Below are positions 52,822 through 58,104 of a stretch of 64,000 nt of DNA, in pieces (the stretch's first letter is position 1; each line of letters opens with the position of its first letter). Under the pieces are notes generated by a model. It worked only from the letters and a program-made list of their open reading frames with translations. It did no database searches and was not told where the DNA came from. This stretch comes from Gemmatimonadaceae bacterium. Its GTDB lineage: Bacteria > Gemmatimonadota > Gemmatimonadetes > Gemmatimonadales > Gemmatimonadaceae. The position numbers and the translations under genes are program-made. The stretch covers positions 1 through 64,000 of the forward strand of contig DASUHB010000072.1 in assembly GCA_036273715.1 (NCBI GenBank), written 5' to 3'.

Positions 52822-53730
52822 TTAGGACCGCAGCTCCGCGCTGGACCCTGCGCGCAGATACCCGGCCATCCACGACGTCACCAGCTCGCCGACGCGCCCG
52901 CGGGCGTAATCGACGGTGATCACGTGGCCGCTGCCGGTCACCCACTCCAGGCGCTTTACCGGAGCGCCGATCGCGGCGAAGGTGGCCTCGGCCGCGGCCT
53001 GCGTTAGGCGATTGTCCTCGCGCGATTGGACGTAGAGCGTCGGCGCCCGCAGCCGGCCCAGCGCGCCGCGCGCTTCCGTCGCCAGCGCCTCGAGCTCGGC
53101 CAGCAGCCGGGGCGTGGACGCGCCGTAGCCTAACGAATGCGCGCGCTCGTCCGGATCGCGAATCGACCGCGGGTTGCTCACGCCGCGGCCCACGTAGGGC
53201 ATCACCACACCGGCCGCCGCCGCCCCGCGCGCGAACCATCGGAGGCTGCGCGGCGGGATGATGTACGGCGCGAGCAGCGCCACGGCCCCCACCTGCGGCT
53301 GGTCCGCCACGACGAGCACCGCGAGCGCGCCGCCCATGGAGAGCCCCACGACGCCGATCCGCTCGTACCGCGACGCGACGTTCGCATACGCGTCGCGGGC
53401 CGCGTTCAGCCAGGATCCACCGGCCGAGGTTCTGAACGCTTCCAGCGTGCGGCCGTGTCCCGGGAGGAGCGGCGCATACACCGGGAACCCGCGGGCGTGG
53501 AGATCGGCGGCGAGAAAGCGCAGCGTGTCCGGCGAATCGCCGAAGCCGTGAATGAGGAGCACCGCGTCGCGCGCACCGGGCACCGGCAGGTCGATCGGGC
53601 CCGCGCCGGGAATGATTCCGCCAGCGCCTAACGGAAGCCGCGCGGCCACCGCGCGCTCGACACGCCGCCGCGACGCAGCGCGCGCAAGGGCGGCCAGGAT
53701 CACGATCGCGAGCAGGACGTACGGGATCAC
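52822..53730 (-). CDS. alpha/beta hydrolase, carboxylesterase type
   Basis: The 302-residue protein has an N-terminal transmembrane helix (VLLAIVILAALARAA), then an alpha/beta hydrolase fold: oxyanion region HGFGDSP, nucleophile elbow GLSMGG, the acid Asp in VQSREDNRL and the final His in GSGHVIT. It is likely an inner-membrane-anchored esterase or lipase of the carboxylesterase/monoacylglycerol type. It starts with GTG overlapping the Crp-family regulator gene by four bases (GTGA), so they form an operon. Confidence 0.88.
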   Translation of the reverse strand: MIPYVLLAIVILAALARAASRRRVERAVAARLPLGAGGIIPGAGPIDLPVPGARDAVLLIHGFGDSPDTLRFLAADLHARGFPVYAPLLPGHGRTLEAFRTSAGGSWLNAARDAYANVASRYERIGVVGLSMGGALAVLVVADQPQVGAVALLAPYIIPPRSLRWFARGAAAAGVVMPYVGRGVSNPRSIRDPDERAHSLGYGASTPRLLAELEALATEARGALGRLRAPTLYVQSREDNRLTQAAAEATFAAIGAPVKRLEWVTGSGHVITVDYARGRVGELVTSWMAGYLRAGSSAELRS

Positions 53731-54452
53731 TCCCTGATGTCCGCCCCGCTGGCTGCGCGTTCATCGTAGAGCGCGATCGTCGAACGGACGGCGCCCTGCC
53801 GCGACATCCGGCCCACGAGCCCGTCCAGATCGGCGATCACCAGACCGTTCCCCGCCCGCTGGATGAGCCCTTCAGACGACAGCCTGCCTAACACCAGCGA
53901 GATCGATTCGCGCGTCGCGCCGACCAGCTCGCCCAACAGACGCCGCGACACGACGATGCTCTCCTGCGCGATCGCGTCCACCGGCGTGTCGCGGCTCTGT
54001 GCCATACGCACCAGCGCGGCAACCAGACGCTGCTCCACCGTCAGCGTCGCATACTGGCCGAATTTGTCGAGGATCTCGGTGCGCTCGGCCATCAACTGTC
54101 GCACCAGAGCTAACGCATGCACCGGCTGCTCGCGCATGAGCGCGCTGAACCGCGCGGTGCTCAGGTGCAACGTCTCCGTCTCGTCTTCCGCACGCGCTTG
54201 ACTCGCGTAGTGCGCGTCCGACTCCAACCCTTCGCCACCGAACGTCTCGCCCGGTGTCGCCACCCACGGCACGAAGCTCCGACCAGACGCCACCGGATTT
54301 CTGAGCGCAACCTGGCCGCGCACGACGATGAATACGCCGTCCGCCAACGCCCCCTGCTCGTAGATCGCGAACCCAGCGGGCCAAAACGTGCGAGCGCCGT
54401 ACTTGGCGATCGCTTCCCGTTGCTCACGCGACAAACGTGTGATTTCTTTCAT
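53727..54452 (-). CDS. Crp/Fnr-family transcriptional regulator
   Basis: The 241-residue protein has a cyclic-nucleotide-binding-fold domain (about 15-130, with GQVALRN and GETFGGEGL) and a C-terminal winged helix with recognition helix ELVGATRESISLVLGRL. It contains no Cys, so it is not an Fe-S FNR. Whether it binds cAMP is uncertain because the usual phosphate-binding Arg/Ser pair is not clear. It is transcribed away from the hydrogenase-like gene with 187 bp between start codons, and precedes the esterase gene in an operon. It is the most likely binder of the palindrome at 54603. Confidence 0.9.
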   Translation of the reverse strand: MKEITRLSREQREAIAKYGARTFWPAGFAIYEQGALADGVFIVVRGQVALRNPVASGRSFVPWVATPGETFGGEGLESDAHYASQARAEDETETLHLSTARFSALMREQPVHALALVRQLMAERTEILDKFGQYATLTVEQRLVAALVRMAQSRDTPVDAIAQESIVVSRRLLGELVGATRESISLVLGRLSSEGLIQRAGNGLVIADLDGLVGRMSRQGAVRSTIALYDERAASGADIRE

Positions 54453-54602
54453 GTGTACAGCCGCCACGTCGCTCACAGCTCTGATCTGGTAGTCACGCTC
54501 CGCCCACGCCAATGCTACTGCAGCATCGGCGCAACGCGCCGTGACGTCCCGAGTCCGCAATGAACGGGCCGTGGCTTGGCGCAGCGAACTGAACGAGCGA
54601 AT

Positions 54603-54618
54603 ATTAGACACACCTAAT
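54603..54618. promoter_or_regulatory. ATTAG-N6-CTAAT palindrome, candidate Crp-family operator
   Basis: The sequence has two 5-bp arms separated by six bases, exactly the 5-N6-5 geometry of Crp sites (TGTGA-N6-TCACA), but with different arms. It lies in the divergent gap, 22 bases before the start of the hydrogenase-like gene and 151 bases before that of the Crp-family regulator. It is AT-rich against a GC-rich background. Confidence 0.5.
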
Positions 54619-54639
54619 TTCTCGCAGACCATTCAACCA

Positions 54640-55803
54640 ATGTCGCGCCGCCAAGCCTCCGAAGCCAGCCCCGCATCGGTTGTGATCCTCGGCGCCGACG
54701 CCGTGCTCGCGGCGCTGCCGGCGACATCGGTCCAGTTAGCACACGCCTGCCGCGCGTTAGGCTACGACCTGGCCTTTCCGGCCACCTGGGGCGACGAGCT
54801 GGTGGCCGAGGGCTGCCTCAGGTTCCTCGAAGCGCACAAGCTCGATGCCGCCATCCTGTCGTCGTGCCCGCACGTGGTCGATCGCCTAACGCGCGCCGGA
54901 TCGGAGCTCCTCCCGCACATGATCGCGCTGGCCGCGCCGCCGGTCGCCGCGGCACGATATCTCCGCGCGGCGTTCGCCCATCGCGACCTCCGCATCACGT
55001 ACGTCGGCGCGTGTCCCGCCGCCGATGATCCGAGCATCGACGCGCGCCTCGAGCCATCCGAGTTCCTCGACGCGTTAGGCGAGCGCGGCATCGTGCTCGC
55101 CGACTTGCCGGAGTTCTTCGACGCCGTCCTTCCGCCCGATCGACGGCGCTACTGGTCGCTGCCCGGCGGCGCGCCGTCGGCCGACCGCCTCGCCGCGCAG
55201 GACCCGCGCCGCGCGCTCGTCGAGCTCGATGGCGAGGAGTTTCTCGTCGATCTCGCGCAGCGTCTCCTGACGCGCCAGCACGCACTCATCGACGTGTCGC
55301 TCGCGGCCGGCTGTGCCTGCGCGGGTTTGGTGCGCGGCGCGCGCGCCACGCTCATCGCGCTCGAGCCGCCGCGCGCTGCCGGGCCGGTGCTCGACCCGGG
55401 CATCACAGTCGATCTCCGGCCTCCGGACACCACCCCGCAGGTGATCGAAGCCGGGCGTGCGGAGGTCGAGCCGCCGGAACACTCCGCGATGCCTAACGCA
55501 GCACGCGCCGCCACCGTCGCGGCACCGCCCGCGATTCGTGACGCCGGCGCCCGCGCGATTCCGCGGGCTTTCGCCGCGCACCGCGCGCTCGCCAAACGCC
55601 GCGAGCGAGCGCCGCTCGTCTATCCGCCGACTACCTACTCCACGCGGCCGCGGCCCAGGACGCCGACCGGGCCCGTCATCCCGCTCTCGACCGACCGGCC
55701 TGGGTTTGCGCCCCCGCCGCTCGTGCCCGCACCGCCGCCACTTCCCGGCAAGATGCGGACGGCGCCGCCGGATCACTCACCCGCGTCACCCACCGTCTGC
55801 TGA
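54640..55803 (+). CDS. protein related to [FeFe]-hydrogenase catalytic domain
   Basis: The 387-residue protein matches the [FeFe]-hydrogenase large-subunit C-terminal fold without ferredoxin or other accessory domains. The three H-cluster signature blocks can be aligned: ILSSCPHVVDRL (Cys76; TSCCP motif in hydrogenases), VGACPAADD (Cys125; MPC motif) and AAGCACAGLVRG (Cys225, Cys227; where hydrogenases have CxxxC). The proton-transfer Cys next to the first ligand is Ser75 here. A Pro-rich tail of about 60 residues ends in Cys387. It may bind an Fe-S cluster and act as a redox sensor rather than a hydrogenase. A Crp-family regulator is divergent. Confidence 0.75.
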   Translation: MSRRQASEASPASVVILGADAVLAALPATSVQLAHACRALGYDLAFPATWGDELVAEGCLRFLEAHKLDAAILSSCPHVVDRLTRAGSELLPHMIALAAPPVAAARYLRAAFAHRDLRITYVGACPAADDPSIDARLEPSEFLDALGERGIVLADLPEFFDAVLPPDRRRYWSLPGGAPSADRLAAQDPRRALVELDGEEFLVDLAQRLLTRQHALIDVSLAAGCACAGLVRGARATLIALEPPRAAGPVLDPGITVDLRPPDTTPQVIEAGRAEVEPPEHSAMPNAARAATVAAPPAIRDAGARAIPRAFAAHRALAKRRERAPLVYPPTTYSTRPRPRTPTGPVIPLSTDRPGFAPPPLVPAPPPLPGKMRTAPPDHSPASPTVC

Positions 55804-55833: not shown

Positions 55834-57960
55834 CTAACGCTTGGCGCGGCCGCTGACCGCGGCGGCCGCATCGTCGATCGCATGCGTCGCGGCATCGAAC
55901 CGCGTCACCAGATCCGCGAGCTCCCGCGCCGCGAGGTCATGATCCCCGGCGCGAATCGCTTCGTTCACCGATGGGAACACCATGTTGGCGTAGCCATTGT
56001 CCTCGTCCGCCGCGTAGATCAGGTTGCGGAACCACGGACGCGTGCGCAAACCCGATGGACGCGTGAACGCACGCTCGACGCGCATCAACGCCGCGTTCGT
56101 GCGCACATCCACGTCGCGCGACGGCGCGCCGTGCGCGAGCACCGAATCGCGCGCACCATTGAACGCGGTCGCCGCCTGCTCCATTCGGCTGATCGCCGCC
56201 GAGAGCGCGCTCGTGTCCAGCGTCCAACCGCTCGCCTTCGCCGCTGAGTCGACGCGCGGAACATAGGCACGCATCGTTCGCGCATACTCGACGTAGTCGT
56301 ACGGCAGGATGTCCGCGTCCGCGAAGCGCTCCACCATTGCCGCGCCTACCCGCGCCGCCGCGGCGTGGTAGCCGAACGTCGGATCACCAAATTTCGACAT
56401 CCAGTGGTACGAGTCGTAGAGCGAGTGATAGACGCCGCCCGCACCGCCGAATCCCCATTCGGCAATCGGGATTCCAAAGTGATTGTAGAATCCGGCGAAA
56501 TCGCTGCCGCCGCCAGGATCGCTCATGCGCGGTTGGGCCGTGTCCGGCGTGTTCGTGCGCTTCCGCCACACGTCGTAGATCGAGCCGGCGCCGCTCGGAT
56601 CCGGGATGTGACTCACCACATCGCGCAGCGTCGAACGAATCGACGGAGAGCCGCCGCCGCCGAATGCAGATCCCTGTGCCGCAACGTCCTGATTGAAGTA
56701 CGCGACCCCGCCGTGCAACAGTCGCAGCGAGTCGTCCTCGACGTATTCCGTCGAGCCTAACAGACCCCATTCTTCCGCATCCCACGTCGCGAACACGATC
56801 GTGCGCTTCGGCTTGTAGCCTGCACGCACTGCCTCGGCCACCGCGCGCGCCGCCTCCATCACACTCACGGTTCCGCTGACGTTGTCCGCGGCGCCCGGCC
56901 CCCACGCGTCGCGGTGGCCGCCGATCATCACGATTTCATCGGGAAACTCGCTGCCGCGCACGATGCCGAACGTGTCCCAAATCGTTTTGATCGCCGCCGT
57001 CGCCGTGTCGCTGCGCACGATGAGACGCGCGGCCACCGGCCCCGGTCCAGCGTGATAGCGGAACGGCAACCCTCCTTGCCAGCCCTGCGGGATCTCGTGG
57101 CCGCGCAGTCCCTCGAGCAGCTTGGCCGCGTTGCCGTACGACATCGGAATGACCGGAATGTGCGAGATCTCGATCGAGTCGAGGGGGACACGGTGCACGC
57201 CCGGTTTGCTCGCGTATCCCGGCGTGGTCGGATCACCATCTGGATTCAGAATGCTCCCCCGCTGCACCCCGTTGGGATTCCGCATCGGGCCCAACGGATA
57301 GACGTCCCCGCGCGCGTAGCCGTCGTCCGCAGGATCGCTGTAGATGATCAGTCCGATCGCGCCATGCTTCTCCGCCTCGCGCGCCTTGATGCCGCGGTAC
57401 GAGCGGCCGTAGCGCGCGATGGCGATCTTGCCCTTCACCGACACGCCTAACGAATCGAGCTGCGCGTAGTCCTCGATCAACCCGTAGTTCACGTACACCA
57501 CCTGGGCCGAGACGTCGCCGGTCCCGCTGTAGCCGTTGGCGATCACCGGCTCCTTCACCGTCCACGACGTGGTGTCCTCAGGCACCGGCCCTTCCGCCAA
57601 CCTCAGCGGCAGCGTATCCGGCGCGATGCGCCACGCTTCCATGAGCGTGGTGTGCGGCATCCAGACGTCGTAGGCGCGCACGTTGGTCTCGAGTCCCCAG
57701 CGCTTCATCGCGTCGATCACGAAATCGCGTGTCCGCGCCTGCGCCGGCGTGCCGGCCACGTGCACATCGCTCGACAGTGTGCGCGAATCGGCGCGCGCCT
57801 GCGCGCTGTCCGGACGCGGCGTGGTACTCGCTTCCAGCGCTCGCTCCCGCTGCGCCTCCGCCGGCGTGTAGCCCGGCAGCGATGTCTGTTGTCCGTAGAC
57901 GCCGCCGACACGGACAACGACAGCGAACGCCGCCAATGCGACCTTTAGATGAACACGCAT
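55834..57960 (-). CDS. M28B peptidase, glutamate carboxypeptidase II-like
   Basis: The 708-residue protein has a signal peptide (LAAFAVVVRVGGVYGQ), a protease-associated domain (about 120-290, around GKIAIARYGRSYRG and GAIGLIIYSDPADDG) and an M28 dizinc core with GGHRDAWGPGAADNVSGT (His, Asp), WDAEEWGLLGSTE (Glu) and YHSLYDSYHWM (His), then a C-terminal helical domain. This is the layout of human GCPII and transferrin receptor relatives. It should remove C-terminal acidic residues from peptides in the periplasm. The ATG at 57960 begins the signal peptide. Confidence 0.95.
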   Translation of the reverse strand: MRVHLKVALAAFAVVVRVGGVYGQQTSLPGYTPAEAQRERALEASTTPRPDSAQARADSRTLSSDVHVAGTPAQARTRDFVIDAMKRWGLETNVRAYDVWMPHTTLMEAWRIAPDTLPLRLAEGPVPEDTTSWTVKEPVIANGYSGTGDVSAQVVYVNYGLIEDYAQLDSLGVSVKGKIAIARYGRSYRGIKAREAEKHGAIGLIIYSDPADDGYARGDVYPLGPMRNPNGVQRGSILNPDGDPTTPGYASKPGVHRVPLDSIEISHIPVIPMSYGNAAKLLEGLRGHEIPQGWQGGLPFRYHAGPGPVAARLIVRSDTATAAIKTIWDTFGIVRGSEFPDEIVMIGGHRDAWGPGAADNVSGTVSVMEAARAVAEAVRAGYKPKRTIVFATWDAEEWGLLGSTEYVEDDSLRLLHGGVAYFNQDVAAQGSAFGGGGSPSIRSTLRDVVSHIPDPSGAGSIYDVWRKRTNTPDTAQPRMSDPGGGSDFAGFYNHFGIPIAEWGFGGAGGVYHSLYDSYHWMSKFGDPTFGYHAAAARVGAAMVERFADADILPYDYVEYARTMRAYVPRVDSAAKASGWTLDTSALSAAISRMEQAATAFNGARDSVLAHGAPSRDVDVRTNAALMRVERAFTRPSGLRTRPWFRNLIYAADEDNGYANMVFPSVNEAIRAGDHDLAARELADLVTRFDAATHAIDDAAAAVSGRAKR

Positions 57961-58104
57961 GATGTTGGAGTGCAGAGAGGATGCCGCCGAATGCCTTCGA
58001 TCGCCTACGCATGTTGCGCGCGGAACGTTGCCCATGGGCGCGGGCGTTGGCAAGTGTCCTGCGCCCGCCCCCCGCCCTGTCCCGCGAGCCGCGAGCCGCG
58101 ATGA

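Follow-up and report, generated by a model that had tools for sequence, protein, structure and literature searches.

The locus and its genes

The window (the whole stretch of DNA analysed, 64,000 nucleotides from a soil-type Gemmatimonadaceae bacterium) contains a gene for a 387-residue protein related to the H domain of [FeFe]-hydrogenases. On its left lie a divergent gene for a Crp-family regulator and an alpha/beta hydrolase gene overlapping the latter by 4 bp (53727-53730); on its right lies a convergent gene for a peptidase-like protein (Table 1).

Table 1. Genes, putative ligand positions and short sequence elements at the locus (positions are those of the window).
Feature	Position	Strand	Evidence
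Alpha/beta hydrolase, conserved neighbour	52822..53730	-	PF12146, E 1.2e-20
Crp-family regulator, probably starting at Met61 of the listed long ORF	53727..54452	-	PF13545 and PF00027 above cut-off
Conserved 15-bp element CGGCCCGTTCATTGC (CGGCCC-N3-CATTGC), pointing at the Crp gene	54557..54571	-	Synteny comparison
Palindrome ATTAG-N6-CTAAT, lying 21 bp upstream of the start codon of the H-like gene	54603..54618		Kept only in closest relatives
Stand-alone protein of 387 aa derived from an H domain (domain at about residues 8-258)	54640..55803	+	PF02906, hhalign, structure comparison
Cys76, putative L1 ligand (SSCP); Ser75 at the proton-transfer Cys position	54865..54867	+	Invariant, 33/33 and 20/20
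Cys125, putative L2 ligand (YVGACPAAD); Lys of IGPCIAKK missing	55012..55014	+	Invariant, 33/33 and 20/20
Cys225-x-Cys227, L3	55312..55320	+	Invariant; ungapped hhalign at L3
Pro/Ala-rich tail, no transmembrane helix in the window protein	55414..55803	+	dN/dS 0.30-0.40
Tail motif IPRAFAAHR, also seen in membrane-anchored relatives ([LIV]PR[AT][YF])	55558..55584	+	Pattern
M28-type peptidase-like gene, conserved convergent neighbour	55834..58053	-	Synteny; family name by reading the sequence only

The sole Pfam domain in the 387-residue protein is PF02906 (Fe_hyd_lg_C), which spans residues 10-157 (35 bits, E 1.5e-8, against a curated cut-off of 22.1 bits); the same search detected no Fer4, FeS, GGDEF or other output domain. 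PF02906 is recovered at E<0.01 in 20 of 32 relatives. That 54640-55803 is a real coding sequence follows from the dN/dS ratios obtained against the closest relatives (0.14-0.20 for the H-like domain, 0.30-0.40 for the tail): both indicate purifying selection, with weaker constraint on the tail. Homologues are present in 88 of the 298 genomes of the phylum; the relatives that carry names are Gemmatimonadaceae or Gemmatimonadetes metagenome bins, and every relative found is chromosomal. The source genome (4.3 Mb, 98.7% complete) also encodes a more diverged paralogue with 49% identity (G000:C37:67113-67844). This second protein has a membrane segment and, C-terminally, a coiled-coil-like stretch, falls under the Pfam threshold, and at its own locus (L039, G000:C37:60000-74000) adjoins genes for sulfocyanin (SoxE) and an acyl-CoA dehydrogenase, neighbours unlike those described here.

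The tail varies in its relation to the membrane. A hydrophobic segment fit for a membrane anchor, usually C-terminal, is found in 27 of the 47 complete stand-alone members, and the motif [LIV]PR[AVTS][YF], sought as a pattern, in 25 of the 47; the genus of the window protein has the motif and lacks the anchor.

The fold was approached through an AlphaFold2 model built from eight sequences, which was poor (mean pLDDT 46, pTM 0.45), particularly in the half that carries L3. With this poor model as query, Foldseek returned a single match at E<0.001 among 350,542 chains, the [FeFe]-hydrogenase CbA5H, and the 50 rows listed by VIA-align were without exception of [FeFe]-hydrogenase type (Z 6.8-9.9), covering model residues about 8-155 and in some rows reaching 177. 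A comparison of the family profile with PDB sequences gave no match at E<0.01: what links the protein to the hydrogenase fold is therefore the Pfam match, hhalign and the structure comparison.

Four invariant cysteines

More than 50 members of the stand-alone family, at about 40-100% identity, were aligned. Cys76, Cys125, Cys225 and Cys227 are invariant in all 33 aligned members and again in 20 of 20 further family matches (two of these being contigs already among the 33), while Cys37 and Cys59 vary. A fifth cysteine, at position 74 (C-x-C-P), occurs in nearly all members outside the genus of the window protein; inside the genus the position is Ser or Ala. The HydA fold is the ground for supposing that the four invariant residues would lie close together.

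Loop L3, which in HydA reads CxxxC, aligns without gaps with the closest relatives, a group of GGDEF proteins described below (LIDVSLAAGCAC vs FVDILPCEGCLD; hhalign profile comparison). Cys225 corresponds to the second Cys of the CxxC or CxxxC motif, the first L3 Cys is replaced by Ala, and Cys227 is new, standing in place of an Asp: three of the four cysteines thus match canonical H-cluster ligand positions, and the fourth ligand has moved. The loop differs by group, being CCNGC (CCxxC) in relatives that carry a kinase, CEGC (CxxC) in the GGDEF relatives and GCxC (CxC) in the stand-alone proteins. The changes may have run in the order CxxxC, CCxxC, CxxC, CxC, a direction suggested by these sequences. 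L2 is GACPAADD here, against IGPCIAKK, with its Lys, in the kinase relatives. Upstream of residue 37 there is no Cys, nor is there a ferredoxin-like domain, so the protein has no counterpart of the second Fe-S site of Nar1/NARF.

Maturases and the loss of hydrogenase function

Searches of the whole source genome for HydE, HydF and HydG returned nothing above cut-off. None of the 60 tested genomes that encode a stand-alone or a GGDEF form has HydF, and both genomes encoding a kinase form have it; HydG and HydE follow this pattern where tested. HydF-like matches beneath the cut-off occur in every genome; most likely they are other GTPases.

The catalytic signature of [FeFe]-hydrogenases (L1 CCP, L2 PCxxK, L3 CxxxC) is replaced in the 387-residue protein by SSCP, GACPAADD and AAGCAC. 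Lacking a ferredoxin domain, the proton-transfer Cys, the L2 Lys, the canonical first L3 Cys and HydE, HydF and HydG, the protein is not a hydrogenase. Given the absence of maturases, it is also unlikely, judged by sequence, to bind an H-cluster or respond to H2.

Much of this had been anticipated in the initial annotation, which described a hydrogenase-like protein with cysteines in the three H-cluster places (Cys76, Cys125 and Cys225/227), CxC rather than CxxxC in L3, Ser for the proton-transfer Cys, and neither a ferredoxin domain nor maturases nearby. The residue assignments and the missing ferredoxin domain were borne out, and the absence of maturases extends beyond the window to the whole genome. 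Its view that the protein is unlikely to make hydrogen is supported by the changes in L1-L3 together with the absence of maturases, and the invariance of the cysteines among homologues lends weight to its suggestion of a possible Fe-S site. It had proposed a structure comparison with HydA, HydS and Nar1, naming a predicted fold unlike HydA or loss of the cysteines in close homologues as grounds for rejection: the modelled fold matched HydA-type enzymes, Foldseek and VIA-align both pointing to [FeFe]-hydrogenases, and close homologues keep the cysteines.

Kinship with HydS-like sensors

Relatives at the level of order and class are longer proteins (about 570-600 residues) with the domain order Fer4-Fe_hyd_lg_C-FeS (PF04060)-GGDEF, as determined by a Pfam scan of three members and by reading motifs in the others. 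The motif GGDE[FM] is present in all 14 examined, and eight of the 14 have the exact spacing Cx2Cx4Cx16C, which is the pattern of HydS groups C and D (PMC8163306); some have lost the L1-L3 cysteines entirely. These proteins (loci L022-L031, L046-L048, L051 and L052) come from genomes without HydF. Their sequences mark them, apparently, as undescribed diguanylate cyclases with a hydrogenase-type Fe-S input. At the level of the phylum, relatives in two genomes (G001 and G009) are HydS-like sensors with the order Fer4-H domain-FeS-histidine kinase. The first of these kinases (L049, G001:C176) is encoded near hydE, hydG and hydF; the second (L050, G009:C473) adjoins hydE and part of hydG, the remainder of hydG and all of hydF lying on a separate contig of a fragmented genome.

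Profile comparison by hhalign aligns the 387-residue protein with the GGDEF forms over 258 columns (E 1.4e-37), thereby covering the H-like domain in full, with L3 and an EPPR motif, and with the HydS-like kinases over 129 columns (E 2.8e-12): the protein therefore looks like the H core alone. A tree rooted on the kinase forms groups the stand-alone members in a single clade (SH-aLRT 99), and a long branch lies between this clade and the GGDEF forms. Since its closest kin are HydS-like GGDEF proteins, and its more distant kin HydS-like histidine kinases accompanied by hydEFG, the 387-residue protein looks like what remains, as a separate protein, of a HydS-type sensor core. Of the features of such sensors it has neither the N-terminal 2x[4Fe-4S] domain, nor the C-terminal Cx2Cx4Cx16C, nor a PAS, kinase or other output domain.

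With the putative sensory [FeFe]-hydrogenases HydS of groups C and D (TmHydS, TamHydS) the 387-residue protein shares an H domain of the same family and the missing proton-transfer Cys, and its kin in the phylum still have both the N-terminal clusters and, at the C-terminus, the Cx2Cx4Cx16C motif; the protein itself differs in having none of these Fe-S modules and no output, in the CxC of L3, and in coming from a genome without maturases. The HydS-like GGDEF proteins are its closest homologues over the whole domain, with RRR..S..GG and EPPR motifs in common and no HydF in the tested genomes, but they keep three Fe-S motifs and the GGDEF output, and their L3 is CxxC or devoid of Cys. Residues 8-177 share the fold of HydA (CpI, CrHydA1, DdH, CbA5H; VIA Z as high as 9.9), and three of the four H-cluster Cys positions are also in common; in contrast to HydA the protein is not catalytic, having no proton-transfer Cys, L2 Lys, L3 CxxxC or maturases. 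Eukaryotic Nar1/CIAO3 and NARF also combine a hydrogenase fold without the two-iron subsite with retained Fe-S ligands, but Nar1 carries a further cluster site and works in cytosolic Fe-S assembly, and no close sequence relation to these proteins was found. Yeast Nar1 is an Fe-S protein whose clusters are rapidly destroyed by O2 (PMC12621388).

The divergent Crp-family gene and its control region

The start of the Crp-family gene listed among the open reading frames probably lies too far upstream: Met61 (54452) is most likely the true start, since the alignment with relatives begins only near this residue, and the divergent intergenic region is therefore about 187 bp long, not 7 bp. The regulator has the cNMP-binding (PF00027) and Crp-type HTH (PF13545) domains. 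From Met61 to its end it contains no Cys, and in particular none of the Fe-S-binding cysteines of FNR; hence it is not FNR-like.

Among 148 genomes of the family, the H-like gene was found in 42 and a Crp orthologue (threshold E<1e-40) in 60; both occur in 26, the Crp gene alone in 34 and the H-like gene alone in 16. Where both are present they are adjacent and divergent in every case (26/26). An earlier count, which put a Crp gene beside the H-like gene at all 33 loci, arose because antisense shadow ORFs had chained clusters together, and was corrected by direct search. The alpha/beta hydrolase and the M28-type peptidase keep their places in many genomes, also at loci with only the Crp gene or only the H-like gene, and the neighbourhoods revealed no conserved partner gene for the H-like protein. 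Of the small sensing system proposed in the initial annotation, made up of regulator, esterase (the hydrolase) and H-like protein, what stands is the divergent arrangement of the first and last wherever they co-occur; the pair is not constant, each gene also occurs alone, and the synteny of the esterase is independent of either. The constant adjacency fits shared regulation, not an obligate partnership.

The 15-bp element has one match in the whole 4.3-Mb genome and is conserved across genera: it is found at 24 of 26 loci with the gene pair, at 5 of 20 Crp-only loci and at none of 23 H-like-only loci. It resembles a sigma-54 -24/-12 core (GG-N10-GC), and rpoN is present in the source genome. 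The element is a candidate for a sigma-54-like promoter core or an operator, as read from its sequence; since it is not a palindrome, it is less likely to be a simple site for Crp.

Interpretation

Around the observed homology, fold match, invariant cysteines, absence of maturases, kinship with signalling proteins and synteny, we infer a scheme in which cluster type, signal, partner and Crp control would be as follows. The balance tips, if only slightly, towards a catalytically dead descendant of the HydS H domain that holds a single [4Fe-4S] cluster and acts as a redox- or gas-responsive adaptor, with a control region shared with the Crp-family gene. The H fold would be kept, and Cys76, Cys125, Cys225 and Cys227 would bind one cubane [4Fe-4S] at the former site of the H-cluster cubane; the two-iron subsite presumably could not be made. 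The state of the cluster (redox, O2 or NO) would alter the domain or the tail, and a protein partner would read the change through the Pro-rich tail, in which the PRAY/PRAF motif lies. The signal would be passed on at the membrane in most relatives, by way of the C-terminal anchor, and in the cytosol in the case of the window protein. The divergent Crp-family gene, sharing the control region, probably sets the expression of both genes.

Other assignments of the four cysteines were weighed against this [4Fe-4S] adaptor. The CxC pair and the two distant cysteines could hold another metal, and a structural Zn or mononuclear (rubredoxin-like) Fe site, in a protein serving mainly as a scaffold at the membrane or in a complex, would account for a ligand pattern unlike that of H-cluster proteins, for the fifth Cys at position 74 in most relatives, and for the long disordered tails, membrane anchors and coiled-coil-like ends. 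We think this unlikely: three of the four cysteines occupy the cubane-binding positions of [FeFe]-hydrogenases, and the closest kin retain multiple Fe-S domains. An Fe-S carrier or assembly factor, which binds a cluster and hands it on rather than sensing with it, is kept as a rival because Nar1 is the nearest functional analogue. The pattern of loss is the same (H fold and cluster ligands kept, two-iron subsite gone), and a tail with a short motif could dock partners; the second cluster site of Nar1 nevertheless has no equivalent in this protein, Fe-S assembly genes were not noticed next to members, the relatives are fused to signalling outputs, and a distribution as patchy as 42 of 148 genomes ill suits a housekeeping factor, all of which makes the carrier distinctly unlikely.

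HydS enzymes, which also have no proton-transfer Cys, are still active (PMC8163306), and to this extent a functional hydrogenase that has an H-cluster and senses or converts H2 could be entertained; with HydE, HydF and HydG missing from the genome, and the L2 Lys, the first L3 Cys and the ferredoxin clusters all missing from the protein, the probability of such an enzyme is close to negligible. As to the regulator, a dedicated signalling pair in which the H-like protein relays a redox signal to the Cys-free Crp protein would explain both the unfailing adjacency of the two genes in the 26 genomes that have both and the conserved element, unique in the genome, in their common region. It is hard to reconcile with the 34 genomes that have the Crp gene alone and the 16 that have the H-like gene alone, or with an element that tracks the Crp gene, being present at some Crp-only loci and missing where the H-like gene stands by itself; we regard such a pair as decidedly improbable.

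Behind the preferred adaptor we see, tentatively and a little short of calling it probable, the following history. The core of an H2-sensing HydS kinase encoded together with hydEFG would have given rise, after loss of the maturases, to a multi-Fe-S c-di-GMP synthase and then to a free-standing, often membrane-anchored Fe-S switch, the fourth ligand sliding along L3 (CxxxC, CCxxC, CxxC, CxC); both families would then be undescribed redox or gas sensors.

The H domain and HydS are already known. In the literature covered, mostly open-access and with bracketed names that may escape a search, there was no [FeFe]-hydrogenase joined in this sense to a diguanylate cyclase, no such protein from Gemmatimonadota, no stand-alone H core in which a ligand has moved, and no HydS-like GGDEF protein in a maturase-free genome; the last two appear new. 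To our knowledge, few proteins are known in which an H domain is without hydrogen chemistry and yet strongly selected, the eukaryotic case being Nar1/NARF. One practical caution is that PF02906 matches alone are no basis for assigning H2 metabolism to genomes such as these. A 2022 census of the sensory inputs to c-di-GMP signalling nowhere contains hydrogenase or Fe-S terms (PMC8846402). From a bacterial family with invariant relocated ligands and kinship to diguanylate cyclases that have the same core, one would learn how a metalloenzyme that senses gas turns into a simple Fe-S switch, and c-di-GMP signalling would gain an Fe-S or hydrogenase-type input.
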